Source of the DNA: Chamaelirium japonicum
Taxonomy: Eukaryota > Streptophyta > Magnoliopsida > Liliales > Melanthiaceae
NCBI GenBank assembly: GCA_947650365.1
Contig: OX393555.1
Location: 78,373,995-78,437,994 of the forward strand
Length of the DNA stretch: 64,000 nucleotides
Direction: 5' to 3'
Part shown: positions 6,263-64,000 of the stretch, one piece after another
Numbering within the stretch: the first letter of the stretch is position 1
Layout of the letters: each line of letters starts with the position of its first letter
Notes under the pieces: generated by a model
Databases searched by the model: none
The model's input: only the letters and a program-made list of their open reading frames with translations
Told to the model about the DNA's origin: nothing
Made by a program: the position numbers and the translations under genes

Positions 6263-6264
6263 AA

Positions 6265-6772: not shown

Positions 6773-6781
6773 GGGGTCGGG

Positions 6782-22983: not shown

Positions 22984-23634
22984 TTAGAATGGATTGTATG
23001 ATTGAATTAGAATGGATCGTATAAATGAATTAGAATGGATCGTATGAATGAATTAGAATGGATACATTCGTGCGAATGAATTAGAATGGATCGTACGAAT
23101 GAGTAAGAATGGATCGTATGAATGAATTAGAATGGAACATGTGAATGAATTAGAATAGACCGTGCGAATAAATTAGAATGGATATATTCGTGCGAATGAA
23201 TTAGAATGGATCGTACGAATGAATTAGAATGGATCGTATGAATGAATTAGATTGGATCGTGCGAATGAATTAGAATGGAGCATATGAATGAATTAGAATG
23301 GATACATTCGTGCGAATGAATTAGAATGGATCGTAAGATTGAATTAGAATGGATCATATGAATGAATTAGAATGGATCGTACAAACGATTTAGAATGGAT
23401 TGTACTAATGAATTAGAATGGATACATTCGTGCGAAAGAATTAGAATGGATCAAATGAAGGAATTAGGGTGAATCGTACGAATGAATTAGAATGGATAAA
23501 TTTGTGCGAAAGAATTAGAATGGATTGTATGAATGAATTAGAATGGATCGTATGAATGAATTAGAATGGATCGTACGAATGAATTAGAATGGATCGTATG
23601 AATGAATTAGAATGGATCGTGCGAATGAATTAGA
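22984..23634 (-). repeat. Reverse satellite block
   Basis: About 650 bp of reverse monomers including the TTAGGGTG variant near 23464. Leaves at GAATTAGATCCATTCTAATTC. Confidence 0.9.
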
Positions 23635-27503: not shown

Positions 27504-27721
27504 ATCCATTCTAATTCATTCATTCGATGCATTCTAATTCATTCATGCAATCCATTCTAATTCATTCCTACGATCCATTCTAATTCATTCATACGATCTA
27601 TTCTAATTCATTCGCACGAATGTATGCATCTAATTCATTCGCACGATCCATTCTAATTCATTCGTACAATCCACTCTAATTCATTCGTACGATCCATTCT
27701 AATTCATTCGTACGATCCACC
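27504..27721 (+). repeat. Satellite spacer between the two 2.07-kb copies
   Basis: About 217 bp of forward monomers that do not belong to the duplicated segment, with private variants such as CATTCATTCGATGC and TATGCATC. Confidence 0.7.
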
Positions 27722-32860: not shown

Positions 32861-32904
32861 ATGAGTTAGAATGGATCGTATGAATGAGTAAGAATGGATC
32901 GTAC

Positions 32905-34832: not shown

Positions 34833-34955
34833 GAATTAGAATGTATCGTGCGAATGAATTAGAATGGATCGTACGAATGAATTAGAATAGATTGTGCGAA
34901 TGAATTAGAATGGATCGTACGAATAAATTAGAATGGATCGTATGAATGAATTAGC
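34833..34955 (-). repeat. Short reverse satellite block
   Basis: About 120 bp (five monomers) in reverse, bounded by GATCCATGAATTAG and GAATTAGCATGATCC. The same short inversion occurs at 26188-26310, 28477-28599 and 55523-55643. Confidence 0.88.
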
Positions 34956-37900: not shown

Positions 37901-40900
37901 TCTAATTCATTCGCACAATCTATTCTAATTCATTCGTACGATCCATTCTAATTCATTAGCACGATCCACTCTAATTCATTCATACGATCCAATCTATTTC
38001 TTTCGTACGATCCATTCTTACTGATTCGTATGATCCATTCTAATTCATTTGTACGAATGTATCCATTCTAATTCGTTCATACGATCCATTCTAATTCATT
38101 CGCACGATCCATTCGAATTCATTCATACGATCCATTCTAATTCATTCATACGATCCATTCTAATTCATTCGCACGAATGTATCCATTATAATTCATTCAT
38201 ACGATCCATTCTAATTCATTCACACAACCTATTCTAATTCATTTGTACGATCCATTCTAATTCATTAGCACGATCCATTCTAATTCATTCGTACGATCCA
38301 TTCTATTTCATTCGTACGATCCATTCTTACCTATTCGTACGATCCATTCTAATTCATTCGCACGAATGTATCCATTCTATTCTAATTTATTCGTATGATC
38401 CATTCTAATTCATTCGCACGATCTATTCTAATTCATTCATACAATCTATTCTAATTCATTCATACGATCCATTCTAATTCATTCGCACGATCCATTCTAA
38501 TTCATTCATACGATCCATTCTAATTCATTGATACAATCTATTCGAATTCTTTCGCACGAATGTATCCATTCTAATTCATTTGTACGATCCACCCTAATTC
38601 CTTCGTATGATCCATTCTAATTCATTCAAACGAATGTATCGATTCTAATTCATTCGTACGGTCCATTCGAATTCATTCCTACGATCCATTCTAATTCATT
38701 CATACGATCCATTCTAATTCATTCATACGATCTATTCTAATTCATTCGCACGAATGTATTCATTCGCACGAATGTATTCATTCGCACAATCTATTCTAAT
38801 TCATTCGTACGATCCATTCTAATTCATTAGCACGATCCATTCTAATTCATTCGTAAGATCCATTCTATTTCATTCGTATGATCTATTCTAACTCATTTGT
38901 ACGATCCATTCAAATTCATTCACACGAATGAATCCATTCTAATTCATTCGTACGATCCATTCTAATTCATTCGCACGAACCATTCTAATTCATTCGTACG
39001 ATCCATTCTAATTCATTCATACGATCTATTCTAATTCATTCGCACAGTCTATTCTAATTCATTCGTAAGATCTATTCTAATTCATTAGCACGATCCATTC
39101 TAATTCATTCGTATGATCCGTTCTATTTCATTCGTACGATCCATTCTTACTCATTCGTACGATCCATTCTAATTCATTCGCACGAATGTATCCATTCTAA
39201 TTCATTCGCACGAATGTATCCATTCTAATTCATTCGTACGATCCATTCTAATTCATTCGCACGATCCATTCTAATTCATTCGCACGATCCATTCTAATTC
39301 ATTCACACAATCCATTCTAATTCATTAGCACTATCCATTCTAATTCATTCATACGATCGATTCTAATTTATACGATCCATTCCAATTCATTCATTCGATC
39401 CATTCTATTTCATTCGTATGATCCATTCTAATTCATTCATATGATCCATTCTATTTCATTCGTACGATCCATTCTTACTTATTCGTACGATCCAATCTAA
39501 TTCATTCGCACGATCCAATCATATTCATTCGCATGATCCATTCTAATTCATTCGTACGATCCATTCTATTTCATTGATACGAACCATTCTTACTCATTCG
39601 TACGATCTATTCTAATTCATGCGCACGAATGTATCCATTCTAATTCATTCATACGATCCATTCTAATTCATTCGCACGATCCATTTTAATTCATTCATAC
39701 GATCCATTCTAATTCATTCGTACGATCCATTCTAATTCATTCATACAAACCATTCTAAATCTTTTGCACGAATGTATCCATTCTAATTCATTCGTACGAT
39801 ACATTCTAATTCATTCGCACGATCCATTCTAATTCATTCATACGATCCATTCTAATTCGTTTGTACGATCCATTCTAATTCATACGTACGATTCATTCGA
39901 ATTCATTCATACGATCCATTCTAATTCATTCATACGATCCATTCTAATTCATTCGCACGAATGTATCCATTCTAAATCATTCGTATGATCCATTCTAATT
40001 CATTCGCATGATCCAATCTAATTCATTCGCACGATCCATTCTAATTCATTCGTACGATCCATTCTATTTCATTCGTACAATCCATTCTTACTCACCATTC
40101 GAATTCATTCGCACGAATGTATCCATTCTAATTCATTCGTACAATCCATTCTAATTCATTCGCACGATCCATTCTAATTCATTCATACGATCCATTCTAA
40201 TTCATTAGTACGATCCATTCTAATTCATTCATACAAACCATTCTATTTCATTCGTACGAACCATTCTTACTCATTCATACGATCCATTCTAATTCATTCG
40301 CACGAATGTATCCATTCTAATTCATTCGTACGATCCATTCTAATTCATTAGCACGATCCATTCTAATTCATTCGTACGATCCATTCTATTTCTTTCGTAC
40401 GATCCATTCTTACTGATTCGTACGATCCATTCTAATTCATTCGCACGAATGTATCCATTCTAATTCGTTCGTACGATCCATTCTAATTCATTCGCACGAT
40501 CCATTCGTATTCATTCATACGATCCATTCTAATTCATTCATACGATCCATTCTAATTTATTCGCACGAATGTATCCATTCTAATTCATTCGTACGATCCA
40601 TTCTAATTCATTCACACAATCTATTCTAATTCATTCGTACGATCCGTTCTAATTCATTAGCACGATCCATTCTAATTCATTCGTACGATCCATTCTATTT
40701 CATTCGTACGATCCATTCTTACCTATTCGTACGATCCATTCTAATTCATTCGCACGAATGTATCCATTCTATTCTAATTCATTCGTATGATCTATTCTAA
40801 TTCATTCGCACAATCCATTCTAATTCATTCATACAATCCATTCTAATTCGTTTATACGATCCATTCTAATTCATTCGCACGATCCATTCTAATTCATTCA

Positions 40901-43900
40901 TACGATCCATTCTAATTCATTCATACAATCCATTCTTATTCTTCCGCACGAATGTATCCATTCTAATTCATTTGTACGATCCACCCTAATTCCTTCGTAT
41001 GATCCATTCTAATTCATTCGCACGAATGTATCCATTCTAATTCATTCGTACGGTCCATTCGAATACATTCCTACGATCCATTCTAATTCATTCATACGAT
41101 CCATTCTAATTCATTCATACGATCTATTCTAATTCATTCGCACGAATGTATTCATTCGCACAATCTATTCTAATTCATTCGTATGATCCATTCTAATTCA
41201 TTAGCATGATCCATTCTAATTCATTCGTACGATCCATTCTATTTCATTCGTATGATCTATTCTAACTCATTCGTACGATCCATTCAAATTCATTCACACG
41301 AATGAATCCCTTCTAATTCATTCGTACGATCCATTCTAATTCATTCGCACAAACCATTCTAATTCATTCGTACGATCCATTCTAATTCATTCGTACGATC
41401 CATTCTAATTCATTCACACAATCTATTCTAATTCATTCGTACGATCCATTCTAATTCATTAGCACGATCCATTCTAATTCATTCGTATGATCCGTTCTAT
41501 TTCATTCGTATGATCCATTCTTACTCATTCGTACGATCCATTCTAATTCATTCGCACGAATGTATCCATTCTAATTCATTCGTACGATCCATTCTAATTC
41601 ATTCGTACGATCCATTCTAATTCATTCGCACGATCTATTCTAATTCATTCGTACGATCCATTCTAATTCATTCGTACGATCCATTCTAATTCATTCGTAC
41701 AATCCATTCTAATTCATTAGCACTATCCATTCTAATTCATTCATACGATCTATTCTAATTTATACGATCCATTCTAATTCATTCATACGATCCATTCTAT
41801 TTCATTCGTATGATCCATTCTAATTCATTCATATGATCCATTCTATTTCATTCGTACGATCCATTCTTACTCATTCGTACGTTCCAATCTAGTTCATTCG
41901 CACGATCCAATCATATTCATTCGTACGATCCATTCTAATTCATTCGTACGATCCATTCTATTTCATTCATACGATCCATTCTTACTCATTCGTACGATCC
42001 ATTCTAATTCATTCGCACGAATGTATCCATTCTAATTCATTCGTACGATCCAATCTAATTCCTTCGCACGATCCTTTCTAATTCATTCATACGATCCATT
42101 CTAATTCATTCGTACGATCCATTCTAATTCATTCATACAGCCAATTCTAATTCTTTTGCACGAATGTATCCATTCTAATTCATTCATACGATCCATTCTA
42201 ATTCATTCGCACGATCCATTCTAATTTATTCATACGATCCATTCTAATTCATTCATACGATCCATTCTAATTCATACGTACTATCCATTCGTATTTATTC
42301 ATACGATCCAGTCTAATTCTTTCATACGATCGATACTAATTCATTCGCACGAATGTATCCATTCTAATTCATTCGTACGATCCATTCTAATTAATTCGCA
42401 CGATCCAATCTAATTCATTCGCACGATCCATTCTAATTCGTTCGTACGATCCATTCTATTTCATTCGTACGATCCATTCTTACTCATTCGTACAATCCAT
42501 TCTATTTCATTCGTACGATCCATTCTTACTGATTCGTACGATCCATTCTAATTCGTTCGCACGAATGTATCCATTCTAATTCATTCGTATGATCCATTCT
42601 AATTCATTCGCACGATCCATTCTAATTCATTCATACGATCCATTCTAATTCATTCATATGATCAATTCTAATTCATTCGCACGAATGTATCAATTCTAAT
42701 TCATTCGTACGATCCATTCTAATTCAATCGCACAGCCTATTATAATTCATTCGTACGATCCATTCTAATTCATTAGCACGATCCATTCTAATTCATTCGT
42801 ACGATCCATTCTATTTCATTCGTACGATCCATTCTTACTCATTCGTACAATCCATTCTAATTCATTCGCATGAATGTATCCATTCTATTCTAATTCATTC
42901 GTACGATCCATTCTAATTCATTCGCACGATCCATTCTAATTCATTCATATGATCCATTCTAATTAATTCGTACGATCCAGTTTAATTCATTCGCACGATC
43001 CATTCTACATTCATACTATCCATTCTAATTCATTCATACAATCCATTCTAATTCTTTCGCACGAATGTATCCATTCTAATTCATTCGTACGATCCACCCT
43101 AATTCCTTTGTATGATCCATTCTAATTCATTCGGATGAATGTATCCATTCTAATTCATTCGTACGATCCATTCGAATTCATTCATACGATCCATTCTAAT
43201 TCATTCATGCGATCCATTCTAATTCATTCCCACGAATGTATTCATTCGAACAATCTATTCTAATTCATTCGTACGATCCATTCTAATTCATTAGCACGAT
43301 CCATTCTAATTCATTCGTATGATCTATTCTATTTCATTCGTACGACCCATTCTTACTCATTCGTACGATCCATTCTAATTCATTCGCACGAATGTATCCA
43401 TTCTAATTCAGTCATATGATCCATTCTAATTCATTCGCACGATCCATTCTAATTCATTCATACGATCCATTCTAATTCATTCGTACGATCCATTCTAATT
43501 CATTCGCACAATCTATTCTAAGTCATTCGTATGATCCATTCTAATTCATTAGCACGATCCATTCTAATTCATTCGTACGATCAATTCTATTTCATTCGTA
43601 CGATCCATTCTTACTCATTCGTACGATCCATTCTAATTCATTCGCATGAATGTATCCATTCTAATTCATTCGCATGAATGTATCTATTCTAATTCATTTG
43701 TACGATCCATTCTAATTCATTCGCACGATCCATTCTAATTCATTCGTACGATCCATTCTAATTCATTCGTACGATCCATTCTAATTCATTCATACGATCC
43801 ATTTTAATTCATTCGCACGATCCATTCTAATTCATTCATACCATCCATTCTAATTCATTCATACAATCCATTCTAATTCGTTCGCACGAATGTATCCATT

Positions 43901-44912
43901 CTAATTCATTCGTACAATCCACCCTAATTCCTTCGTATGATCCATTCTAATTCACTCGTACAATCCATTCGAATTCATTTATGCGATCCATTCTAATTCA
44001 TTCGCACGATCCATTCTAATTCATTCATACGATCCATTCTAATTCATTCGTACGATCCATTCTAATTCATTTGCACGATCCATTCTAATTCATTCGCATG
44101 ATCCATTCTAATTCCTTCGTACGATACATTCTATTTCATTTGTATGATCCATTCTAATTCCTTCGTACGATCCATTCTAATTCATTCCCATGAATGTATC
44201 GATTCTAATTCATACGTATGATCCATTCTTACTCATTCTAATTCATTCATACAATCCATTCTAATTCTTTTGCACGAATGTATCCATTCTAATTCATTCG
44301 TACGATCCTTTCTAATTCCTTCGTTCGATCCATTATAATTCCTTCGTACGATCCATTCTAATTCCTTCGTACGATCCATTCTATTTCATTCGTATGATCC
44401 ATTCTAATTCCTTCGTACGATCCATTCTAATTCATTCCCATGAATGTATCCTTTCTAATTCCTTCGTACGATTCATTCTAATTCATTTGTACGATCCATT
44501 CTTTCGTATGTATCCATTCTAATTTATTCGTACGATCTATTCTAATTCATTCGCCCGATCCATTCTAATTCATTCGTACGATCCATTCTAATTCATTCAT
44601 ACGATCCATTCTAATTCATTCGCACGATCCATTCTAATTCATTCTTACGATCCATTCTAATTTTTTCGTACGATCAATTCTAATTCATTCGCACAATCTA
44701 TTCTAATTCATTCGTACGATCCATTCTAATTCATTAGCACGATCCATTCTAATTTATTCATACGATCCATTCTATTTCATTCGTACGATCCATTCTTACT
44801 CGTTCGTACGATCCATTCTAATTCATTCGCACGATCCATTCTTATTTATTCATACGATCCATTCTATTTCATTCGTACGATCCATTCTTACTCATTCGTA
44901 CGATCCATTCAT
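34956..44912 (+). repeat. Forward satellite block with a 2.0-2.4-kb higher-order unit
   Basis: Uninterrupted forward orientation for 10 kb. The rare CTTACTGATTCG variant recurs at 36031, 38022, 40414 and 42530 (spacings 1991, 2392, 2116). The shortened monomer in CTAATTTATACGATCC recurs at 37281, 39369 and 41761. AAATCATACG recurs at 35871 and 37862 (1991). The units also share GAACCATTCTTAC and CGAATGTATTCATTCGCAC variants. Length differences are due to gain or loss of a few monomers. The block ends in the fold-back junction GATCCATTCATGGGAATG. Its last 2.6 kb belong to the palindrome arm. Confidence 0.82.
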
Positions 44913-47900
44913 GGGAATGAATTAGAATGGATCATACGAAAGAATTAGAAAGGATCGTACGAATGAATTAGAATAGATTGTGCGAATATATTAGAATGGA
45001 TCATATGAATGAGTTAGAATGGATTGTGCTAATGAGTAAGATCAATTCTTACTCATTCGTACGATCCATTATAATTAGAATGGATCGTACGAATGAATTA
45101 GAATGGATCGTATGAATGAATTAGAATGGATCGTGCGAATGAACTACAATGGATCGTACGAATAAATTAGAATGGATACATTCGTGCGAAAGAATTAGAA
45201 TGGATTGTATGAATGAATTAGAATGGATCGTACGAATGAATTAGAATGGATCGTATGAATGAATTAGAATGGATGGTGCGAATGAATTAGAATGGATCGT
45301 ATGAATGAAATAGAATGGATCATACGAATGAATTAGAATGGATCGTGCGAATGAATTAGATTGGATCGTGCGAATGGATCGTACGAATGAATTAGAATGG
45401 ATCGTACGAATGAATTAGAATGTATTGTATGAATGAATTCGAATAGATTGTGCGAATGATTTAGAATGGATCGTACGAATGAATTAGAATGGATCGTACG
45501 AATGAATTAGAATGGATCGTATGAATGAATTAGAATGGATTGTACGAATGAATTAGAATGGATACATTCGTGCGAAAGAATTAGAATGGATCGTGCTAAT
45601 TCATTCATACGATCCATTCTAATTCATTCGTACGATCTATTCTAATTCATTCGCACAATCTATTCTAATTCACTCGTACGATCCATTCTTATTCATTCGC
45701 ACGATCCATTCTAATTCATTTGCATGATCCATTCTAATTCATTCATACAATCCATTCTAATTCTTTCGCAAGAATGTATCCATTCTAATTCATTCGTACG
45801 ATCCACCCTATTTCCTTCGTATGATCCATTCTTATTCATTCGCACGATCCATTCTAATTCATTCATACGATCAATTCTAATTCATTCATACAATCCATTC
45901 TAATTCTTTCGCACGAATGTATCCATTCTAATTCATTCGTACGATCAACCCTAATTCCTACGTATGATCCATTCTAATTCATTTCCATGAATGTATCCAT
46001 TCTAATTCATTCGTACGATCCATTCTAATTCATTCGTACTATCCACCCTAATTCCTTCGCATGATCCATTCTAATTTATTCGCACGAATGTATCCATTCT
46101 AATTCATTCGTACGATCCATTCGAATTCATTCAAACGATCCATTCTAATTCATTCATACGATCCACTCTAATTCATTCACACGAATGTATCCATTCTAAT
46201 TCATTCGTACGATCCATTCTAATTAATTCGCACGATCCAATCTAATTTATTTGCATGATCCATTTAAATTTATTCGTACGATCTATTTTATTTCATTCGT
46301 ACGATCCATTCTTACTCATTCGTACGATCCATTCAAATTCATTCGCATGAATGTATCCTCATTCGCACGATCCATTCTATTTCATTTGCACGATCCATTC
46401 TAATTCATTCATACAATCCATTCTAATTCTTTCGCACCAATGTATCCATTCTAATTCATTCGTACGATCCACCCTAATTCCTTCGTATGATCGATTCTAA
46501 TTCATTCGCATGAATGTATCCATTCTAATTCATTCGTACGATCCATTCGAATTCATTCATACGATCCATTCTAAATCATTCATACGATCTATTCTAATTT
46601 ATTCGCACGAATGTATCCATTCTAATTCATTTGTACGATCCATTCTAATTCATTCGCACAATCTATTCTAATTCATTCGTACCATCCATTCTAATTCATT
46701 CGCACGATCCATTCTAATTCATTTGCACGATCCATTCTAATTCATTCATACAATCCATTCTAATTCTTTTGCACGAATGTATCCATTCAAATTCATTCCT
46801 ATGATCCATTCTAATTCCAATATATGATCCATTCTAATTCCTTCGTGTGATCCATTCTATTTCATTCGTATGATCCATTCTAATTCCTTCGTACGATCCA
46901 TTCTAATTCATTACCATGAATGTATCCATTCTAATTCATACGTACGATCCATTCTAATTCATTCATACGATCCATTCTAATTCATTCGAACGAATGTATC
47001 CATTCTAATTCATTCGTACGATCCATTCTAATTCATTCACACGATCCATTCTAATTCATTCGTACGATCCATTCTTATTCATTCATACGATCCATTCTAA
47101 TTCATTCGCACGAATGTATCCATTCTAATTCATTCGTGCGATGCATTCTAATTCATTCTAATCCATTCTAATTTATTCGTACGATCCATTCTAATTTTAT
47201 ACGTACGATCCATTCTAATTCATTCTAATTCATTCATACGATCCATTCTAATTCATTCGCACGAATGTATCCATTCTAATTCATTCGTACGATCCATTCT
47301 AATTCATTCGCACGAATGTATCCATTCTAATTCATTCTAATTCTTTCGTATAATCCATTCGTACGATCCATTCTAATTCATTCGTACGTACGATCCATTC
47401 TAATTCATTCGCACGATCCATTCTAATTCATTAATACGATCCATTCTAATTCATTCATACAATCCATTCTAATTCTTTCGCACGAATGTATCCATTCTAA
47501 TTCATTCATACAATCCATTCTAATTCTTTCGCACGATCCATTCTAATTCCTTCGTACGATCCATTCTAATTCATTTGTACAATCCATTCTAATTCATTCG
47601 CACCATCCATTCTAATTCATTCATACGATCCATTCTAATTCATTTATACAATCCATTCTAATTCTTTCGCACGAATGTATCCATTCTAATTCATTCGTAC
47701 GATCCACCCTAATTCCTTCGTATGATCCATTCTAATTCATTCGCACGAATGTATCCATTCTAATTCATTCGTACGATCCATTCTAATTCATTCATACGAT
47801 CCATTCTAATTCATTCATACGATCCATTCTAATTCATTCGCACGAATGTATTCATTCGAACAATCTATTCTAATTCATTTGTATGATCCAGTCTAATTCA

Positions 47901-50900
47901 TTAGCACGAGCCATTCTAATTCATTCGTACGATCCATTCTATTTCATTCGTACGATCCATTCTTACTCATTCATACAATCCATTCTAATTCATTAGCACG
48001 AATGTATCTATTCTAATTTATTTGTACGATCCATTCTAATTCATTCGCCCGATTCATTCTAATTCATTCATACAATCCATTCTAATTCATTAGTACGATC
48101 CATTTTAATTCATTCATACGATCGTACGTAGGAATGGATCGTACGATCCATTCTATTTCATTGGTACTATCCATTCAAATTCATAAAATCCATTCTAATT
48201 TCATTCATACGATCCATTCTAATTCATTCTTACTCATTCTAATTCATTCGTAAAATCCATTCATATGATCTTATTCATTCGTACAATAAATTAGAAAGGA
48301 TACATTTGTGGGAATGAATTAGAATGGATCGTATGAATGAATTAGATTGGATTATACGAATAAAATAGAATGGATCGTACGAATGAATTAGAATGGATCG
48401 TACTAATGAATTAGAATGGATCGTACGAATATATTAGAATAGATTGTGCGAATGAATACATTCGTGCGAATGAATTAGAATGGATCGTATGAATGAATTA
48501 GAAATGATTGTATGAATGAATTAGAATGGATCGAATGAATGAATTCGAATGGATCGTATGAATGAATTAGAATGGATACATTCGTGCGAATGAATTAGAA
48601 TGGATCATACAAGGGAATTAGGGTGGATCGTACGAATGAATTAGAATGGATCGTACTAATGAATTAGAATGGATCGTACGAATGAATTAGAATAGATTGT
48701 GCGAATAAATTAGAATGGATCGTACGAATGAACTAGAATGGATCGTATGAATGAATTAGAATGGATCCTGAGAATGAATTAGAGTGGATCGTACGAATGA
48801 ATTAGAATGGATACATTCGTGCGAATGAATTAGAATGGATCGTACGAATGAGTAAGAATTAGAATGGATTGTATGAATGAATTAGAATGGATCGTATGAA
48901 TGAATTAGAATGAATCGTGCGAATGAATTAGAATGGATTGTGCTAATAAGTAAGAATGGTTCGTACGAATGAAATAGAATAGATCGTCCGAATGAATTAG
49001 AATAGATCGTGCTAATAAATTAGAATGGATCGTACGAATGAATTAGAATAGATTGTGCGAATGAATTAGAATGGATCGTGCGAATGAATTAGAATGGATA
49101 CATTCGTGCAAATGAATTAGAATGGATCGTATGAATGAATTAGAATGGATCGTATGAATGAATTCTACTGGATCGTATGAATGAATTAGAAAGGATACAT
49201 TCGTGCGAAAGAATTAGAATGGATCATACGAAGGAATTAGGGTGGATCGTACGAATGAATTAGAATGGATACATTCGTACGAAAGAATTAGAATGGATCA
49301 TATGAATTAGAATGGATACATTCGTACGATCCATTCTAATTCATTCATACGATCCATTCTATTTCATTCATGCGATCCATTCATACTCATTCGTACGATT
49401 CATTGGAATTCATTCGTACGATCCATTCTAATTCATTCGCACAATCTATTCTAATTCATTCGTACGATCCATTCTAATTCATTAGCACGATCCATTCTAA
49501 TTCATTCATATGATCCATTCTATTTCATTCGTATGATCCATTCTTACTCATTTGTACGATCCATTCTAATTCATTCGCACGAATGTATCCATTCCAATTC
49601 ATTCGTACGATCCATTCTATTTCATTCATACGATCCATTCTAATTCATTCATACGATCCATTCTAATTCATTCGAACGAAAGTATGCATTCTAATTCATT
49701 CGCACGATCTATTCTAATTCATTCGTACAATCCATTCCAATTCATTCGTACGACCCAATCTAATTCATTCATACAATCCACCCTAATTCCTTCGTATGAT
49801 CCATTCTAATTCGTTCGCACGAATGTATCTATTCTAATTCATTCTAATTCATTCACACGATCCATTCTAATTCATTCATACGATCCATTCTAGTTCATTC
49901 GCACAAATGTATCCATTCTAATTCATTCATACGATCCATTCTAATTCATTCGCACAATCTATTCTAATTCATTCATACGATCCATTCTAATTCATTCGTA
50001 CGATCCATTCTAATTCATTCGCATGATCCATTCTAATTCATTCATACGATCGATCGTGCTAATGAATTAGAATGGATCGTATGAATGAATTAGAATTGAT
50101 CGTACGAATGAAATAGAATGGATCGTACGAACGAATTAGAATGGATCGTATGAATGAATTAGAATGGATCGTGCGAATGAATTAGAATGGATCGTACGAA
50201 TGAATTAGAATGGATACATTCGTGTGAATGAATTAGAATGGATCGTACGAAGGAGTAAGAATGGATCATACGAATGAAATAAAATGGATCGTACGAATGA
50301 ATTAGAATGGATCGTGCGAATGAATTAGATTGGATCGTGCGAATGAATTAGAATGGATCATACGAATGAATTACAATAGATACATTCGTGCGAATGAATT
50401 AGAATGGATACATTCGTTCGAATGAATTAGAATGGATCGTGCAAATGAATTAGAAAGGATCGTACGAATGAATTAGAATAGATCATATGAATGAGTTAGA
50501 ATGGATCATACGAATGAATTAGAATGGATACATTCGTATGAAAGAATTAGAATGGATCGTGCTAATTTATTCATACGATCCATTCTAATTCATTCGTACG
50601 ATCCATTCTAATTCATTCGCACAATCTATTCTAATTCATTCGTACGATCCATTCTAATTCATTCGCACGATCCATTCTAATTCATGGATCGTATGAATGA
50701 ATTAGAATGGATACATTCGTGCGAATGAATTAGAATGGATCGTACGAATGAATTAGAATGGATGCATTCGTGCGAAAGAATTAGAATGGATCGTACGAAT
50801 GAATTAGAATGGATCATACGAAGGAATTAGGGTTGATCGTACGAATGAATTAGAATGGATCGTACGAAGGAATTAGAATGGATCGTACGAAGGAATTAGA

Positions 50901-51733
50901 ATGGATACATTCGTGCAAAAGAATTATAATGGATCATACGAAGGAATTAGGGTGGATCGTACGAATGAATTAGAATGGATACATTCGTGGGAAAGAATTA
51001 GAATAGATTGTATGAATGCATTAGAATGGATCGTATGAATGAATTAAAATGGATCGTGCAAATGAATTAGAATGGATCGTATAAATGAATTAGAATAGAT
51101 CGTATGAATGTATTCGAATGGACCGTACGAATGAATTAGAATGGATACATTTGTGCGAATGAATTAGAATGGATCATACGAAGGAATTTGGGTGGATCGT
51201 ATGAATGAATTAGAATAGATACATTCATGCGAAAGAATTAGAATGAATTAGAATGGATCGTACGAAGGAAATAGATTGGATACATTCGTGCGAATGAATT
51301 AGAATGGATCGTATGAATGAATTAGAATGGATCGTACGAATGAATTAGAATGGATCGTACGAAAGAATTAGAATGCATCGTGCTAATGAATTAGAATGGA
51401 TCGTACGAATGAATTAGAATAGATTGTGCGAATAAATTAGAATGGATCATACGATTGAATTAAATTGGATCGTATGAATGAATTAGAATGGATCGTGCGA
51501 ATGACTTAGAATGGATCGTACGAATGAATTAGAATGGATACATTAGTTTAAATGAATTAGAATGGATCGTACGAATGAGTTAGAATGGATCGTACGAATG
51601 AAATAGAATGGATCGTACGAATGAATTAGAATGGATCGTGCGAAGGAATTAGAATGGATCATACGAATGAAATAGAATGGATCGTATGAAGGAATTAGAA
51701 TGGATCGTACGAAGGAATTAGAATGGATCATAC
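42287..51733. repeat. Left arm of a giant satellite palindrome
   Basis: Every orientation switch and many private variants here are found inverted in 54473-64000, with coordinates summing to about 106,228 (range 106,206-106,287 because of small indels). Paired points: 42287/64000, 44501/61727 (CTTTCGTATG), 44910/61318, 45038/61190, 45075/61153, 45595/60633, 48131/58097, 50044/56162, 50685/55522. Blocks within: forward to 44912, reverse 44913-45595 (with a 35-bp forward piece at 45041-45075), forward 45596-48118, mixed 48119-48282, reverse 48283-49324, forward 49325-50050, reverse 50051-50565, forward 50566-50685, reverse from 50686. Confidence 0.9.
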
Positions 51734-54472
51734 GAAGGAATTAGAATGGATCGTACGAATGAATTAGAATGGATCGTACGAATGAGTAAGAATGGATCGT
51801 ACGAATGAAATAGAATAGATCGTACGAATGAATTAGAATGGATCATACGAATGAGTAAGAATGGATCGTACGAATGAAATAGAATAGATCGTACGAATGA
51901 ATTAGAATGGATCGTGCTAATGAATTAGAATGGATCATACGAATGAATTAGAATAGATTGTGCGAATGATGAATTAGAATGGATCGTGCGAATGAATTAG
52001 ATTGGTTCGTGCGAATGAATTAGAATGGATCGTACGAATGAATTAGAATTAATACATTCGTGAGAATGAATTAGAATGGATTGTATGAATGAATTAGAAT
52101 GGATCGTATGAATAAATTCGAATAGATCGTACGAAGGAATTAGAATGGATTGTATGAATGAATTAGAATGGATCGTGCGAATGAGTTAGAACGGATCATA
52201 CGAATGAATAAGAATGGATACATTCGTGCGAATGAATTAGAATGGATCGTACGAATGAGTAAGAATGGATCGTACGAATGAAATAGAATGGATCGTACGA
52301 ATGAATTAGAATGGATCGTGCGAAAGAATTAGATTGGATCGTGCGAATGAATTAGAATAGATCATAAGAATGAATTAGAATGGATACATTCGTGCGAATA
52401 AATTAGAATGGATCGTACGAATGAATTAAAACGGATACATTCGTGCAAATGAATTAGAATGGATTGTGCAAATAAATTAGAATGGATCGTACGAATGAAT
52501 TAGAATGAATCGTATAAATGAATTAGAATGGATCGTACGAATGAGTAAGAATGGACCGTACAAATGAAATAGAATGTATCGTACGAATGAATTAGATCAT
52601 ACAATCCATGGGAATGAATAAGAATCGATCGTACGAATGAATTCCTTAGCACGAATGAATTAGAATGGATCATACGAATGGATTGTACGAAGTAATTAGA
52701 ATGAATTAGAATGGATCGTACGAATAAATTAGAATGGATCGTATGAATTAATTAGATTGGATCGTGCGAATAAATTAGAATGGATCGTACGAATGAATTA
52801 GAATGGATACATTCGTGCGAATGAATTAGAATGGATCGTATGAATGAATTAGAATGGATCGTATGAATATATTCGAATGGATCATACGTATGAATTAGAA
52901 TGGATCGTACGAATGAATTAGAATGGATCGTATGAATGAATTAGAATGGATCGTACGAAGGAATTAGAATGGATCGTATGAAGGATTTAGAATGGATCGT
53001 ACGAAGGAATTAGAATGGATCGTACGAATGAATTAGAATGGATACATTCGTGCAAAAGAATTAGAATGAATTGTATGAATGAATTAGAATGGATCGTACA
53101 AATGAATTCGAATGGATCGTGTGAATGAATAAGAATTGATCGTACGAATGAATTAGAATAGATTGTGCGAATGAATTAGAATGGATCATACGAATGAATT
53201 AGAATGGATACATTCGTGCGAATGAATTGGAATGGATCGTATGAATGAATTAGAATGGATCGTACGTACGATCCATTCTTACTCATTCATACGATCCATT
53301 CTAATTCATTCGCACGATCCATTCTAATTCATTCATACGATCCATTCTAATTCATTCGTACGATCCATTCTAATTCATTCATACGATCCATTCTAATTCA
53401 TTCATACAATCAATTCTAATTCTTTCGCACGAATTTATCCATTCCAATTCATTCGTACGATCCACCCTAATTCCTTCGTATGATCCATTCTAATTCTTTC
53501 GCACGAATGTATTCTAATTCATTCGTACGATCCATTCTAATTCATTTATATGATCCATTCTAATTCATTCATATGATCCAATCTAATTCATTCATACGAT
53601 CCATTCTAATTTATTCGCACGAATGTATCCATTCTAATTCATTCATACAATCCATTCTAATTCATTCGCACGATCCAATCTAATTCATTCATACGATCCA
53701 TTCTAATTCATTCGTACGATCCATTCTAATTCATTCGCACGAATATATCCATTCTAATTCATTCGCACGATCTATTCTAATTCATTCGCATGATCCATTC
53801 TAATTCATTCATACGATCTATTCTTACTCATTCGTACGATCTATTCTAATTTATTCGCACGAATGTATCCATTCAAATTCATTCATACGATCCATTCTAA
53901 TTCATTTGTACGATCCATTCTAATTCATTTATACAATCCATTCTAATTAGAATGGATCGTACGAATGAATTAGAATGGATCGTACAAATGAATTAGAATG
54001 GATCGTATGAATGAATTAGAATGGATCGTGCGAATTAATAAGAATGGATCGTACGAATGAATTAGAATGGATACATTTGTGCGAATGAATTAGAATGGAT
54101 CTTACGAATAAGTAAGAATGGATCGTACGAATGAGTAAGAATGGATCGTACGAATGAAATAGAATGGATCGTACGAATGAATTAGAATGGATCGTGCGAA
54201 TGAATTAGAATGGATCGTGCGAATGAATTACAATGGATCGTACAAATGAATTAGAATAGATACATTCATGCGAATGAATTAGAATGGATACATTCATGCG
54301 AATGAATTAGAATGGATCGTACGAATGAGTATGAATGGATCGTACGAATGAAATAGAATGGATCGTACGAATGAATTAGAATGGATCGTGCTAATGAATT
54401 AGAATGGATCATACGAATGACTTAGAATAGATTGTGCGAATGAATTAGAATGGATCGTACGAATGAATTAGA
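51734..54472. repeat. Spacer of the palindrome (non-mirrored satellite)
   Basis: Reverse to 53265, forward 53266-53946, reverse 53947-54472. The switch points do not mirror each other around the palindrome centre, so this is true spacer. Its part 52250-53300 is an inverted copy of about 32870-33930 (coordinates summing to about 86,170), including the GAGCTAAGG tag as CCTTAGC at 52644 and the ATCGTACGTACGAT junction (53265 versus 32904). The switch at 53946 is a blunt CTAATTAG palindrome. Confidence 0.82.
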
Positions 54473-57400
54473 TCCATTCTAATTCCTTCGCACTATCCAT
54501 TCTATTTCATTCGTATGATCCATTCTAATTCCTTCGCACGATCCATTCTAATTCATTCGTACGATCCATTCTATTTCATTCGTACGATCCATTCTAACTC
54601 ATTCGTACGATCCATTCTAATTCATTTGCACTAATGTATCCATTTCTAATTCATTCGTACGATCCATTCTAAGTCATTCGCACGATCCATTCTAATTCAT
54701 TCATACGATCCAATCTAATTCAATCGTATGATCCATTCTAATTTATTCGCACAATCTATTCTAATTCTTTCGTACGATCCATTCTAATTCATTAGCATGA
54801 TCCATTCTAATTCTTTCGTACGATCCATTCTAATTCATTCGTACGATCCATTCTAATTCATTCATACGATCCATTCTAATTCATTCGCACGAATGTATCC
54901 AATCTATTTCCTTCGTACGATCCATTTTAATTCATTCTAATTCTTTCGCACGAATGTATCTATTCTAATTCATTCGTACGATCCACCCAAATTCCTTCGT
55001 TTGATCCATTCTAATTCATTCGCACAAATGTATCCATTCTAATTCATTCGTACGATCCATTCGAATACATTCATACGATCTATTCTAATTCATTTATACG
55101 ATCCATTCTAATTCATTCGCACGATCCATTTTAAGTCATTCATACGATCCATTCTAATGCATTCATACAATCTATTCTAATTCTTTCGCACGAACGTATC
55201 CATTCTAATTCATTCGTACGATCCACCCATATTCCTTCGTATGATCCATTCTAATTCTTTTGCACGAATGTATCCATTCTAATTCCTTCGTACGATCCAT
55301 TCTAATTCCTTCGTACGATCCATTCTAATTCATTCGTACGATCCACCCTAATTCTTTCGTATGATCCATTCTAATTCATTCGTACGATCCATTCTAATTC
55401 TTTCGCACGAATGCATCCATTCTAATTCATTCGTACGATCCATTCTAATTCATTTGCACGAATGTATCCATTCTAATTCATTCGCATGAATGTATCCATT
55501 CTAATTCATTCATATGATCCATGAATTAGAATGGATCGTGCGAATGAATTAGAATGGATCGTACGAATGAATTAGAATAGATTGTGCGAATGAATTAGAA
55601 TGGATCGTACGAATGAATTAGAATGGATCGTATGAATGAATTAGCACGATCCATTCTAATTCTTTCATACGAATGTATCCATTCTAATTCATTCGTATGA
55701 TCCATTCTAACTCATTCATATGATCTATTCTAATTCATTCGTACGATCCTTTCTAATTCATTTGCACGATCCATTCTAATTCATTCGCACGAATGTATCC
55801 ATTCTAATTCATTCGCACGAATGTATCCATTCTAATTCATTCGTACGATCCATTCTAATTCATTCGCACGATCCAATCTGATTCATTCGCACGATCCATT
55901 TTAATTCATTCGTACGATCCATTTTATTTCATTCGTACGATCCATTCTTACTCCTTCGTACGATCCATGCTAATTCGTTCGCACGAATGTATCCATTCTA
56001 ATTCATTCGTACGATCCATTCTAATTCATTCGCACGATCCATTCTAATTCATTTATACGATCCATTCTAATTCGTTCGTACGATCCATTCTATTTCATTC
56101 GTACGATCAATTCTAATTCATTCATACGATCCATTCTAATTCATTAGCACGATCGATCGTATGAATGAATTAGAATGGATCATGCGAATGAATTAGAATG
56201 GATCGTACGAATGAATTAGAATGGATCGTATGAATGAATTAGAATAGATTGTGCGAATGAATTAGAATGGATCGTATGAATGAATTAGAATGGATACATT
56301 CGTGCGAATGAATTAGAATGGATCGTGTGAATGAATTAGAATGGATCGTATGAATGAATTAGAATGGATCGTGCGAATGAATTAGAATGAATTAGAATAG
56401 ATACATTCGTGCGAACGAATTAGAATGGATCATACGAAGGAATTTGGGTGGATCGTATGAATGAATTAGAATGGGTCGTACGAATGAATTGGAATGGATT
56501 GGACGAATGAATTAGAATAGATCGTGCAAATGAATTAGAATGCATACTTTCGTTCGAATGAATTAGAATGGATCGTATGAATGAATTAGAATGGATCGTA
56601 TGAATGAAATAGAATGGATCGTACGAATGAATTGGAATGTATACATTCGTGCGAATGAATTAGAATGGATCGTACAAATGAGTAAGAATGGATCATACGA
56701 ATGAAATAGAATGGATCGTATGAATGAATTAGAATGGATCGTGCTAATGAATTAGAATGGATCGTACGAATGAATTAGAATAGATTGTGCGAATGAATTA
56801 GAATGGATCGTACGAATGAATTCCAATGGATCGTACGAATGAGTATGAATGGATCGCACGAATGAAATAAAATGGATCGTATGAATAAATTAGAATGGAT
56901 CGTACGAATGTATCCATTCTAATTCATATGATCCATTCTAATTCTTTCGTATGAATGTATCCATTCTAATTCATTCGTACGATCCACCCTAATTCCTTCG
57001 TATGATCCATTCTAATTCATTCGCACGAATGTATCCATTCTATTTCATTCGTACGATCCAGTAGAATTCATTCATACGATCCATTCTAATTCATTCATAC
57101 GATCCATTCTAATTCATTTGCATGAATGTATCCATTCTAATTCATTCGCACGATCCATTCTAATTCATTCGTACAATCTATTCTAATTCATTCGTACGAT
57201 CGATTCTAATTTATTAGCACGATCTATTCTAATTCATTCGGACGATCTATTCTATTTCATTCGTACGATCCATTCTTACTCATTAGCACAATCCATTCTA
57301 ATTCATTCGCACGATCCATTCTAATTCATTCATACGATCCATTCTAATTCATTCATACAATCCATTCTAATTCTTACTCATTCGTACGATCCATTCTAAT

Positions 57401-60400
57401 TCATTCGCACGAATGTATCCATTCTAATTCATACGTACGATCCATTCTAATTCATTCTCAGGATTCATTCTAATTCATTCATACGATCCATTCTAGTTCA
57501 TTCGTACGATCCATTCTAATTCATTCGCACAATCTATTCTAATTCATTCGTACGATACATTCTAATTCATTAGTACGATCCATTCTAATTCATTCGTACG
57601 ATCCACCCTAATTCCCTTGTATGATCCATTCTAATTCATTCGCACGAATGTATCCATTCTAATTCATTCGTACGATCTATTCGAATTCATTCATTCGATC
57701 CATTCTAATTCATTCATACGATCCATTCTAATTCATTCATACGATCCATTCTAATTCATTCGCACGAATGTATTCATTCGCACAATCTATTCTAATTTAT
57801 TCGTACGATCCATTCTAATTCATTAGTACGATCCATTCTAATTCATTCGTACGATCCATTCTATTTTACTCGTATAATCCAATCTAATTCATTCATACAT
57901 CCATTCTAATTCATTCGCACAAATGTATCCTTTCTAATTCATTGTACGAATGAATTAGATCATATGAATGGATTTTACGAATGAATTAGAATGAGTAAGA
58001 ATGAGTTAGAATGGATCGTATGAATGAAATTAGAATGGATTTTATGAATTTGAATGGATAGTACGAATGAAATAGAATGGATCGTACGATCCATTCCTAC
58101 GTACGATCGTATGAATGAATTAGAATGGATCGTACTAATGAATTAGAATGGATTGTATGAATGAATTAGAATTAATCGGGCGAATGAATTAGAATGGATC
58201 GTACGAATGAATTAGAATAGATACATTCGTGCTAATGAATTAGAATGGATATTACGAATGAGTAAGAATGGATCGTACGAATGAAATAGAATGGATCGTA
58301 CGAATGAATTAGAATGGATCGTGCTAATGAATTAGACTGGATCGTACAAATGAATTAGAATAGATTGTTCGAATGAATACATTCGTGCGAATGAATTAGA
58401 CTGGATCGTATGAATGAATTAGAATGGATCGTATGAATGAATTCGAATGGATCGTACGAATGAATTAGAATGGATACATTCGTGCGAATGAATTAGAATG
58501 GATCATACGAAGGAATTAGGGTGGATCGTACGAATGAATTAGAATGGATACATTCGTGCGAAAGAATTAGAATGGATTGTATAAATGAATTAGAATGGAT
58601 CGTATGAATGAATTAGAATGGATGGTGCGAATGAATTAGAATGGATTCTACGAATGAATTAGAATGGATCGTACGAAGAAATTAGAATGGATCGTGCGAA
58701 AGAATTAGAATGGATTGTATGAATGAATTAGAATGGATACATTCGTGCGAAAGAATTAGAATGGATTGTATGAATGAATTAGAATGGATCGTATTAATGA
58801 ATTAGAATGGATCGTGCGAATGAATTAGAATGGATCGTACGTACGAATGAATTAGAATGGATCGTACGAATGGATCATACGAAGGAATTAGAATGAATTA
58901 GAATGGATACATTCGTGCGAATGAATTAGAATGGATCGTACGAATGAATTAGAATGGATACATTCGTGCGAATGAATTAGAATGGACCGTATGAATGAAT
59001 TAGAATGAATTAGAATGGATCGTATGTATAAAATTAGAATGGATCGTACGAATAAATTAGAATGGATTAGAATGAATTAGAATGGATCGCACGAATGAAT
59101 TAGAATGGATACATTCGAGCGAATGAATTAGAATGGATCGTATGAATGAATAAGAATGGATCGTACGAATGAATTAGAATGGATCGTGCGAATGAATTAG
59201 AATGGATCGTACGAATGAATTAGAATGGATACATTCGTGCGAATGAATTAGAATGGATCGTATGAATGAATTAGAATGGATCGTACGTATGAATTAGAAT
59301 GGATACATTCATGGTAATGAATTAGAATGGATCGTACGAAGGAATTAGAATGGATCATACGAATGAAAGAGAATGGATCGTACGAAGGAATTAGAATGGA
59401 TCATATGTAGGAATTAGAATGGATCATACGAATGAATTTGAATGGATACATTCGTGCAAAAGAATTAGAATGGATTGTATGAATGAATTAGAATGGATCG
59501 TGCAAATGAATTAGAATGGATCGTGCGAATGAATTAGAATGGATGGTACGAATGAATTAGAATAGATTGTGCGAATGAATTAGAATGGATCGTACAAATG
59601 AATTAGAATGGATACATTCGTGCGAATAAATTAGAATGGATCGTATGAATGAATTAGAATGGATCGTATGAATGAATTCGAATGGATCGTATGAATGAAT
59701 TAGAATGGATACATTCGTGCGAATGAATTAGAATCGATCATACGAAGGAATTAGGGTGGATCGTACGAATGAATTAGAATGGATACATTGGTGCGAAAGA
59801 ATTAGAATGGATTGTATGAATGAATTAGAATGGATCGTGCAAATGAATTAGAATGGATCGTGCGAATGAGGATACATTCATGCGAATGAATTTGAATGGA
59901 TCGTACGAATGAGTAAGAGTGGATCGTACGAATGAAATAAAATAGATCGTACGAATAAATTTGAATGGATCATGCAAATGAAATAGATTGGATCGTGCGA
60001 ATTAATTAGAATGGATCGTACGAATGAATTAGAATGGATACATTCGTGTGAATGAATTAGAGTGGATCGTATGAATGAATTAGAATGGATCGTTTGAATG
60101 AATTCGAATGGATCGTATGAATGAATTAGAATGGATACATTCGTGCGAATGAATTAGAATGGATCATGCGAAGGAATTAGGGTGGATAGTACGAATGAAT
60201 TAGAATGGATCGTACGAATGAATTAGAATATATACATTCATGGAAATGAATTAGAATGGATCATACGTAGGAATTAGGGTTGATCGTACGAATGAATTAG
60301 AATGGATACATTCGTGCGAAAGAATTAGAATGGATTGTATGAATGAATTAGAATTGATCGTATGAATGAATTAGAATGGATCGTGCGAATGAATTAGAAT

Positions 60401-63400
60401 GGATCATACGAAGGAATTAGGGTGGATCGTACGAATGAATTAGAATGGATGCATTCTTGCGAAAGAATTAGAATGGATTGTATGAATGAATTAGAATGGA
60501 TCATGCAAATGAATTAGAATGGATCGTGCGAATGAATTAGAATGGATCTTACGAGTGAATTAGAATAGATTGTGCGAATGAATTAGAATAGATCGTACGA
60601 ATGAATTAGAATGGATCGTATGAATGAATTAGCACGATCCATTCTAATTCTTTCGCACGAATGTATCCATTCTAATTCATTCGTACGATCCATTCTAATT
60701 CATTCATACGATCCATTCTAATTCATTCGTACGATCCATTCTAATTCATTCGTACGATCCATTCTAAATCATTCGCACAATCTATTCTAATTCATTCGTA
60801 CAATACATTCTAATTCATTCGTACGATCCATTCTAATTCATTTGTACGATCCATTCGCACGATCCAATCTAATTCATTCGCACGATCCATTCTAATTCAT
60901 TCGTATGATCCATTCGATTTCATTCATACGATCCATTCTAATTCATTCGCACGATCCATTCTAATTCATTCATACGATCCATTCTAATTCATTCGTACGA
61001 TCCATTCTAATTCATTCATACAATCCATTCTAATTCTTTCGCACGAATGTATCCATTCTAATTTATTCGTACGATCCATTCTAATTCATTCGCACGATCC
61101 ATTCTAATTCATTCATACGATCCATTCTAATTCATTTGTACGATCCATTCTAATTAGAATGGATCGTACGAATGAGTAAGAATTGATCTTACTCATTAGC
61201 ACAATCCATTCTAATTCATTCATATGATCCATTCTAATATATTCGCACAATCTATTCTAATTCATTCGTACGATCCTTTCTAATTCTTTTGTATGATCCA
61301 TTCTAATTCATTCCCATGAATGGATCGTACGAATGAGTAAGAATGGATCGTACGAATGAAATAGAATGGATCGTATGAATGAATTAGAATGGATCGTGCG
61401 AATGAATTAGAATGGATCGTACGAACGAGTAAGAATGGATCGTACGAATGAAATAGAATGGATCGTATGAATAAATTAGAATGAATCGTGCTAATGAATT
61501 AGAATGGATCGTACGAATGAATTAGAATAGATTGTGCGAATGAATTAGAATTGATCGTACGAAAGAATTAGAATGGATCGTAAGAATGAATTAGAATGGA
61601 TCGTGCGAATGAATTAGAATGGATCGTATGAATGAATTAGAATGGATCGTACGAATGAATTAGAATGGATCGGGCGAATGAATTAGAATGGTTCGTACGA
61701 ATAAATTAGAATGGATACATACGAAAGAATGGATCGTACAAATGAATTAGAATGACTCGTACGAAGGAATTAGAATGGATACATTCATGGGAATGAATTA
61801 GAATGTATCGTACGAAGGAATTAGAATGGATCATACGAATGAAATAGAATGGATCGTACGAAGGAATTAGAATGGATCGTATGAAGGAATTATAATGGAT
61901 CGAACGAAGGAATTAGAATGGATGGTACGAATGAATTAGAATGGATACATTCGTGCAAAAGAATTAGAATGGATTGTATGAATGAATTAGAATGGATCGT
62001 GCAAATGAATTAGAATAGATCGTGCGAATGAATTAGAATGGATAGTACGAATGAGTAAGAATGGATCATACATATGAATTAGAATCGATACATTCATGGG
62101 AATGAATTAGAATGGATCGTACGAAGGAATTAGAATGGATCATACAAATGAAATAGAATGTATCGTACGAAGGAATTAGAATGGATCATGCGAATGAATT
62201 AGAATGGATCGTGCGAAAGAATTAGAATGGATCGTATGAATGAATTAGAATGGATCGTATGAATGAATTAGAATGGATCGTGCGAATGAATTAGAATGGA
62301 TCGCATAAATGAATTCGAATGGATTGTACGAGTGAATTAGAATGGATCATACGAAGGAATTAGGGTGGATTGTACGAATGAATTAGAATGGATAGATTCG
62401 TGCGAAAGAATTAGAATGGATTGTATGAATGAATTAGAATGGATCGTATGAATGAATTAGAATGGATCGTGCAAATGAATTAGAATGGATCGTACGAATG
62501 AATTAGAATGGATCGTACGAATGAATTAGAATGGATCGTACGAATGAATTAGAATGGATCGTGCGAATAAATTAGAATGGATCATACAAATGAATTAGAA
62601 TAGATACATTCATGCGAATGAATTAGAATGGATACATTCATGCGAATGAATTAGAATGGATCGTACGAATGAGTAAGAATGGATCGTACGAATGAAATAG
62701 AATGGATCGTACGAATGAATTAGAATGGATCGTGCTAATAAATTAGAATGGATCATACGAATGACTTAGAATAGATTGTGCGAATGAATTAGAATGGATC
62801 GTACAAATGAATTAGAATGGATCGTATGAATGAATTAGAATGGATCGTGCGAATGACTTAGAATGGATTGTATGACTGAATTAGAATGGATACATTCGTG
62901 CGAATGAATTAGAATGGATCGTACGAATGAGTAAGAAAGGGTCGTACGAATGAAATAGAATGGATCGTACGAATGAATTAGAATGGATCGTGCTAATGAA
63001 TTAGAATGGATCGTACGAATGAATTAGAATAGATTGTTCGAATGAATACATTCGTGCGAATGAATTAGAATGCATCGCATGAATGAATTAGAATGGATCG
63101 TATGAATGAATTCGAATGGATCGTACGAATGAATTAGAATGGATACATTCATCCGAATGAATTAGAATGGATCGTACAAAGGAATTAGGGTGGATCGTAC
63201 GAATGAATTATAATGGATACATTCGTGCGAAAGAATTAGAATGGATTGTATGAATGAATTAGAATGGATAGTATGAATGTAGAATGGATCGTGCGAATGA
63301 ATTAAACTGGATTGTATGAATTAATTAGAATGGATCGTATGAATGAATTAGAATGGATCGTGCGAATGAATTAGAATGGATCGTATGAATGAATTAGAAT

Positions 63401-64000
63401 AGAATGGATACATTCATGCGAATGAATTAGAATGGATTGTACGAATGAGTAAGAATGGATCGTACGAATGAAATAGAAGGGATCGTACGAATGAATTAGA
63501 ATGGATCGTGCTAATGAATTAGAATGGATCGTATGAATAAATTATAATAGGTTGTGCGATTGAATTAGAATGGATCGTACGAATGAATTAGAATTGATAC
63601 ATTCGTGCGAATGAATTAGAATGGATCATATGAATGAATTAGAATGGATCGTATGAATGAATTAGAATGGATCGTGCGAATGAATTAGAATGGATCGTAC
63701 GAATGAATTAGAATGGATACATTCATGCGAACGAATTAGAATGGATCGTACGAATCAGTAAGAATGGATCGTACGAATGAAATAAAATGGATCGTACGAA
63801 TGAGTAAGAATGGATCGTACGAATGAAATAGAATGGATCGTACGAACGAATTAGAATGGATCGTGCGAATGAATTAGATTGGATCGTGCGAATGAATTAG
63901 AATGGATCGTACGAATGAATTAGAATGGATACATTCGTGCGAATGAATTAGTATCGATCGTATGAAAGAATTAGACTGGATCGTATGAATGAATTCGAAT
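54473..64000. repeat. Right arm of the giant satellite palindrome, cut by window end
   Basis: Blocks: forward 54473-55522, reverse 55523-55643, forward 55644-56155, reverse 56156-56907, forward 56908-57945, reverse 57946-60633 (with a forward half-monomer at 58088-58103), forward 60634-61153, reverse 61154-61190, forward 61191-61317, reverse 61318-64000. All are mirrored in the left arm. Rare variants confirm this: GTATGTATAAAATTAG near 59031 mirrors CTAATTTTATACGTAC near 47195, and AAGAATTAGACTGG with TATCGATCG at the very end mirrors 42300-42345. The arm is still matching at 64000, so its true length is unknown. Confidence 0.9.
54600..60190. repeat. Segment C: second direct copy of segment A, inside the right palindrome arm
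   Basis: Same orientation and block order as 27722-32860, about 27.2 kb downstream. Because it lies in a palindrome arm, an inverted third copy (segment B) occupies about 46.0-51.6 kb. In the 30781-31015 versus 57941-58175 comparison I count about 13 differences in about 235 bp. The corresponding B versus C stretch shows about 4 in about 205 bp. Confidence 0.82.

Follow-up and report, generated by a model that had tools for sequence, protein, structure and literature searches.

A giant palindrome in a Chio-type satellite array of Chamaelirium japonicum: a probable centre-deleted copy of a palindromic super-unit

How does a mirror-image block whose arms measure 10 kb or more come to lie inside an array of very short tandem repeats? 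The question is raised by a stretch of 64,000 nucleotides of Chamaelirium japonicum (GenBank assembly GCA_947650365.1, contig OX393555.1), referred to here as the window, in which a very long palindrome made entirely of satellite had been predicted from the DNA letters alone. The mirror-image block is real. In the reading favoured here, which is held to be probable and leaves appreciable room for others, the window carries a secondary, centre-deleted copy of a palindromic super-unit of Chio, the centromeric satellite. The evidence comes from comparison with an assembly of 1,518,659,071 bases in 3,253 contigs, in which the window is C7:78,373,995-78,437,994. Coordinates called extended count from the first base of the window and cover its 64 kb and the next 200 kb downstream.

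Anatomy of the mirror-image block

The left arm (LA) and the right arm (RA, also written LA' as its mirror partner) lie on either side of a spacer, S, of 2.77 kb (Table 1). When positions 42,000-51,706 are set against the reverse complement of 54,471-64,300, one alignment spans 9,706 aligned bases with 195 substitutions (2.01%) and five internal gaps (1, 1, 23, 28 and 59 bp), a sixth gap of 13 bp coming from the uneven ends of the aligned pieces. Outward from 51,706 and 54,471, each of the first ten 1-kb steps is 97.6-98.4% identical excluding gaps, and the coordinate sum over these steps lies at 106,177-106,287, shifting at indels. Past the end of the window the mirror persists as a mosaic to about 36.7/69.5 kb and fades beyond. 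These measurements bear out the original prediction of two arms around a 2.7-kb spacer, with a coordinate sum of about 106,228, about 2% mismatch with small indels and a match still running at the window end; the identity along the arms, which it had proposed as a check, is given by the 1-kb steps, and the substitutions between the arms support its opinion that no simple fold-back read artefact is involved.

The order of orientation switches is mirrored as well. Around a centre at 53,100, the orientation blocks agree at 98.3% with 9 switches, while the 4,219 centres with at least 8 switches have a mean agreement of 45.6% (standard deviation 12.6), the best other centre reaching 82%. The remaining long matches within the window, among the 40 best per strand, lie for the most part at 82-86% identity, and some local duplications reach 87-93%.

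The satellite itself has tandem repeat periods of 23 and 28, and 228 kb of it is divided into 177 orientation blocks (141.7 kb plus, 86.7 kb minus). The 9-bp motif TTCGTACGA spans the monomer boundary of its consensus. According to the text of PMC10264360 and PMC12722358, Chio1 and Chio2 of Chionographis japonica have 23- and 28-bp monomers, individual arrays mix forward and reverse monomers, and each chromosome carries on average 8.3 units of 1.89 Mb; enrichment of CENH3 on Chio arrays is described in the text of PMC10264360, and TTCGTACGA is given in that of PMC12722358 as common to Chio1/2 and a satellite of the sister genus. Judged by monomer sizes, motif and mixed orientation, the repeat of the window is almost certainly Chio1/2, the centromeric satellite of the holocentric Chionographis japonica.

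Table 1. Features of the window and of the mirror-image block (window coordinates)
Feature	Position	Strand	Remarks
Non-satellite flank, presumably retroelement-derived	1..7473		Outside the palindrome; minus-strand open reading frames up to 548 amino acids
23-bp satellite array (28-bp variant)	7474..64000		Many orientation switches; runs on past window end
Recently copied block	35107..64000		34-35 kb in all; left edge 35,107-35,743; right edge 69,891-70,018 (C7:78,443,885-78,444,012); twin at +357,313 bp
Outer left arm	36700..42000	+	Mosaic match to right arm (tandem indels); 88-97% excluding gaps, 75-95% counting gap bases
Left arm LA, well-conserved part	42000..51706	+	195 differences to right arm in 9,706 aligned bases
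Spacer S, apparently inner part of an ancestral arm	51707..54470	+	Mirror partner S' absent here; S and S' both at four other loci
Right palindrome junction S/LA', presumed deletion junction	54470..54472		About 2 bp (GA) common to both parents
Right arm RA = LA'	54471..64000	-	Runs on to about 69.5-70.0 kb, past window end

Palindromes of the same family and the presumed loss of the centre

The same blocks stand in the mirror order LA, S, centre, S' and LA' at four other loci, namely C7 at about 78.714 Mb, C73 at about 1.038 Mb and C1 at about 115.036 and 115.164 Mb, the right LA' being matched in part only (query 1-2144) at C1 115.036 Mb. The original prediction had placed a large-scale inverted duplication here, within a satellite already full of smaller inversions. 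The duplication itself and the many smaller switches (177 blocks in 228 kb) are upheld; its location is not, given the mirror order at the four other loci, and the inverted duplication probably did not happen at the window's place.

The centre at C7 (L045) is a near-perfect palindrome in which 24-1151 pairs with 1241-2357 at 96.0% identity around 89 bp. It is recovered whole in 6 of 40 scored copies (one on C7, one on C73, two on C59 and two on C147); 26 others stop at query 777-779, and 8 are partial. The 26 stopping copies would represent a non-palindromic form of the unit, LA-S-X, and query 778 (X:778) would be the point where the sequence turns back. In one progenitor-type unit, DNA lying about 0.7 kb beyond the turn matches 76 bp of the apex exactly in inverted orientation; other places match these 76 bp at 97.4-98.7%. 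Units of LA-S-X are scattered in both orientations within the window's own array.

Different loci lack different parts of the centre. At C1:115.164 Mb, about 0.54 kb spanning the apex is missing (L046 compared with L045). On C10 the left half is complete and is followed by an inverted apex and then a jump to LA' near 49,165, so that X' is mostly absent, S' wholly and LA' in part. On C59 and C147, the coordinates point to a centre in which about 4.35 kb may be duplicated in tandem. Copies of the outer arm flank the C10 palindromes on both sides and several other loci on one side. C1, C7 and C10 are of chromosome scale (137, 86 and 74 Mb); the contigs C59 and C73 measure 1.65 and 1.41 Mb. Two side observations concern C10: its apex is inverted relative to that of C7 (L047:811-1044 against L045:1079-1312, 97.4%), as an arm-to-arm flip would give, and its palindrome region is present twice, at 61.67-61.77 and 62.14-62.24 Mb, about 465-467 kb apart and with nearly equal scores, which could reflect a duplication or haplotypes.

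The window lacks X, the apex, X' and S', a loss which by the model of the C7 locus would amount to about 4.5 kb, X-apex-X' accounting for 1,757 bp of it and S' for 2,766 bp. Among 40 copies scored with the query 51,500-54,700, the S|LA' junction is crossed by two only, the window and the twin at +357,313 bp, while 31 end at 54,467-54,473 and 7 end earlier. The microhomology at this junction is about 2 bp (GA), as judged from stand-in parents, which are the junction S|X of a third, non-palindromic unit and the reverse complement of S|LA. Because S and S' coexist at four loci, which is assumed to be the ancestral state, the spacer is read as the remnant of an asymmetrically deleted palindrome. 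It seems to be the inner portion of one arm, left unpaired by the loss of about 4.5 kb at a microhomology junction.

Arm distances, the recent copy and the surrounding array

If one arm of each palindrome had been kept like the other, this could be seen in the distances among arms. Eight arms of four palindromes (window, C73, C7 ~78.714 and C1 ~115.164) were compared over a 1.2-kb stretch. The distance between arms of the same palindrome is 1.34-2.25% (mean 1.76%, 4 pairs) and that between arms of different palindromes 1.42-2.41% (mean 1.79%, 24 pairs); no inner branch among the eight arms has a support above 54, and among the listed ungapped two-state columns a single variant is restricted to both arms of one palindrome (C73). 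Gaps are confined to two rows, where they come in pairs of 28/28 and 10/10 columns, and are taken as piece offsets. At about 42.3-44.2 kb the window's LA and RA are 2.16% apart, yet they are 1.68% and 1.63% from a right arm on C1, and at 46-49 kb the match of LA to C1:115171743 (5148 bits) outscores its match to the partner arm (5139). Because the eight arms are equidistant, arm-to-arm homogenisation is not visible.

The palindromes of Y chromosomes also have long inverted arms and a short spacer. The window differs from them in that its arms are not homogenised mutually and the palindrome is dispersed over several contigs. Gene conversion between arms, as in Y palindromes, had been offered in the original prediction and would account for the high arm identity, but the arms of the window resemble each other no more closely than they resemble arms on other contigs, and the overlapping distances within and between palindromes over the 1.2 kb leave this explanation with next to no weight.

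The changes themselves look like mutation. From the majority of the eight arms there are 87 changes, 45 of which are C>T and 27 of these at CG (150 CG positions per arm); C>T is concentrated at CG and therefore looks like methylated-CG decay, not read error. The spread of units and palindromes would have been fast relative to this later mutation. A date of about 0.8-1.5 million years, obtained from the LA-RA Kimura two-parameter distance of 2.04% and rates of 1.3e-8 and 7e-9, is not used, since CG decay makes it unreliable. The non-palindromic unit of the window's array, added as a ninth row, is 8.5-9.0% from the eight arms in the 1.2-kb stretch; because the same third unit is 96.5-98.6% identical to LA in 6 of 9 tiles, the units are read as mosaics. 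A separation of non-palindromic copies, as a clade apart from palindromic arms, was considered and is not borne out, the copies being mixed and mosaic.

The block that contains the palindrome is a recent copy with sharp edges. Inside it, seven sampled pieces of the twin 357 kb away, about 19.7 kb together, show 17 substitutions and a single 23-bp indel relative to the window. Beyond the left edge there are 12 substitutions in 93 bp, and beyond the right edge 43 between 70,018 and 70,328; pieces of the twin further out have no match at the corresponding places of the window and find their best matches elsewhere in the array. The arms of the twin extend outward on both sides for another 4.3 kb at 96.3%, followed by about 7 kb at 87.8%, which the arms of the window do not. 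The twin is the likelier donor because its palindrome is fuller, and the block in the window is probably a recent copy of this longer palindrome on the same contig. The two edges of the copied block are nearly mirror-symmetric (within about 0.2-1 kb by reckoning), which cruciform cutting would predict and chance could also give. Further long-range duplication in this array is indicated by two other places on C7 near the twin, one at about 78,821,307 (L036), which matches extended 143.9-145.9 kb at 97.6%, and one at about 78,851,307 (L037), which matches 171.2-173.2 kb at 96.1%, with offsets of 303 and 306 kb.

These results bear on two explanations that would place the origin of the palindrome in the window or in the data. 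In the first, the right arm was derived from the left where it now lies, through a fold-back, a break-induced or a sister-chromatid event, as the 98% arm identity and the conserved order of orientation switches might suggest; LA and RA are not sisters, however, and the block, bounded at about 35.1-35.7 and 69.9-70.0 kb, was copied recently and has a fuller palindrome at its twin. Formation in situ is considered very improbable. In the second, the palindrome is an artefact of assembly or library, such as a fold-back read, a misjoin or a haplotype duplication. The twin is nearly identical, a similar pair about 465 kb apart exists on C10, and the published HiFi primary assembly of C. japonica, given in the text of PMC10264360 as 1,526 Mb in 3,786 contigs at 58.5x, exceeds the measured genome size of 1,368 Mb, making haplotypic duplicates likely somewhere; because of this excess, the twin and the C10 pair could partly reflect haplotypes. 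On the other hand, most of the roughly 2% difference between the arms consists of substitutions, the private C>T changes cluster at CG, other contigs carry similar palindromes, the assembly is built from HiFi reads at 58.5x, and the flanks of the twin mismatch those of the window, unlike in a plain haplotype duplicate. An artefactual palindrome is accordingly regarded as highly unlikely, and the twin as a plain haplotype duplicate was provisionally set aside on its mismatching flanks and the sharp edges.

The surrounding array contains further rearrangements. A direct duplication with an offset of about 11.5 kb lies at extended 87.5-110.5 kb (L011-L013), four pieces of it being 91-97% identical, and another at window 25180-30744 has an offset of about 2.3 kb, 92.6% identity and its own set of orientation switches. 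The same switch junctions are found again near 27,460, 29,749, 56,910 and 70,356. Non-satellite inserts with long open frames lie inside the Chio array at extended 73,686-86,794 (L009-L011) and about 216.6-230.2 kb (L024-L025); a 764-amino-acid frame from these inserts is Ty3/gypsy pol-like, the 120 matches listed being only to plant Ty3/gypsy-like sequences at 43-53% identity. A Pfam scan of the first 7.4 kb of the window, which covered forward frames only, gave no match, the long frames there being on the minus strand.

Proposed origin, spread and decay of the palindromic super-unit

Several points weigh against descent of the window from an apex-bearing palindrome. The window has no apex, and such descent is therefore inferred; the turn at X:778 is placed from stop points, with the flank read for one of the 26 stopping copies. 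Counts from the genome searches are lower bounds, 40 candidates having been scored per query, and C59, C73 and C147, which have no assigned place, may represent alternative haplotypes of other loci. At eight sites, two of the eight arms carry a change, somewhat more often than independent hits would be expected to give, which makes the star of arms imperfect. The arms are also not uniquely each other's best match: the third unit (extended 119.2-129.0 kb) matches 6 of 9 1-kb tiles of the left arm at 96.5-98.6% and beats the partner arm in two of them, and the non-palindromic copy C147:580351 scores 5102 bits against LA, where the partner arm scores 5139.

The last of these points would be expected if the mirror of window and twin had been built by joining two oppositely oriented units of the family, through inversion or end joining, without there ever having been an apex. 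LA-S-X units do lie in both orientations in the same array, in 6 of 9 tiles a non-palindromic unit resembles the arms of the window no less than they resemble each other, and the junction microhomology is only about 2 bp. Elsewhere, however, the same blocks are arranged around a shared apex, some with centre deletions, so that deletion needs fewer steps, and the arms of the twin remain collinear for a further 4.3 kb on each side. Joining is consequently judged unlikely, although it carries more weight than the other alternatives.

For the window as a centre-deleted copy, the following course of events may be proposed. A non-palindromic unit LA-S-X would already have been dispersed among the centromere arrays when, in one copy, a break or a fork reversed direction at X position 778 and continued with the opposite strand as its template; the product would be LA-S-X-apex-X'-S'-LA', its apex measuring about 234 bp. 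This palindrome would then have been copied to other arrays within an interval that was short compared with the roughly 0.9% of later change per arm. The centres would have decayed separately, the lineage of window and twin losing about 4.5 kb (X, apex, X' and S') by end joining, with S left as a 2.77-kb spacer, and other loci undergoing different deletions. Finally, a 34-35-kb block with the centre-deleted palindrome would recently have reached the window's place by being copied over a distance of 357 kb on the same contig. A large palindrome would be prone to breakage and might in this way promote ectopic copying; the order of the events, the fold-back at the apex and the end joining at the centre are suggested by comparison among loci, while the anatomy, the breakpoints in common, the equal distances among arms and the sharp-edged recent copy are observed directly. 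With whole apices, deleted centres and a fresh copy side by side in one genome, the stages by which giant palindromes arise, spread and decay can be placed in sequence.

Parts of this course have parallels in known systems. Fold-back inverted duplications (PMC3907307, PMC10622511) have a short spacer at the apex, which is plausible for the founding event, although here the founding junction is not in the window and the origin is weakly traced. Cells stabilise palindromic junctions by asymmetric deletions, according to the text of PMC8701086, and in the centre-deleted palindromes of transgene concatemers and model systems described there, one-sided loss leaves a spacer derived from one arm, as in the window. 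Unlike those systems, the window belongs to a natural centromeric satellite, with arms of at least 10 kb and a deletion of about 4.5 kb, and the process is reconstructed by comparison.

The closest likeness at the level of arrays is with Tribolium, where the text of PMC13081366 describes macro-dyads, inverted subarrays of kilobases to tens of kilobases in a putative centromeric satellite with conserved inversion sites, and states that array-level macro-dyad symmetries are documented only there. The window is alike in scale and setting, and conserved inversion sites are also found here, the apex being whole in 6 of 40 scored copies on four contigs and switch junctions recurring in the window; the window's own central junction is common only to the twin among 40 scored copies. 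In Tribolium the symmetry is one of direct and inverted monomer subarrays; here, in the satellite of a plant, a specific order of variants and switches recurs in mirror image at 98% around a deleted centre.

Within Chio, the text of PMC10264360 and PMC12722358 gives the same monomers, TTCGTACGA, arrays of mixed forward and reverse orientation and several arrays per chromosome. It describes alternating orientation and short dyad symmetries, to which the window adds long sequence-level palindromes with a shared apex. A literature search of published text listed no report of long mirror palindromes in Chio. For the spread of centromere units, the text of PMC10264360 leaves open gene conversion, inversions or circular DNA. 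A doubtful, more speculative extension would make large palindromes mobile super-units of the holocentromere, copied whole between centromere units and helping to build dispersed units, with hairpin DNA from resolved cruciforms or palindromic circles perhaps as carriers; such mobile palindromes would then have left their traces in the star-like relation of arms from several contigs and in the near symmetry of the edges of the 34-35-kb copy. No special function is proposed for the palindrome beyond its being part of the centromeric satellite.

If the proposed history is true, Chio arrays hold sequence-level palindromes with arms of at least 10 kb and an apex shared on several contigs, beyond the alternating orientation described in the published text. 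They would be a rare record of the formation, spread and decay of giant palindromes, in which gene conversion from arm to arm becomes testable, and they would offer named breakpoints for testing how centromere units spread in a repeat-based holocentromere.

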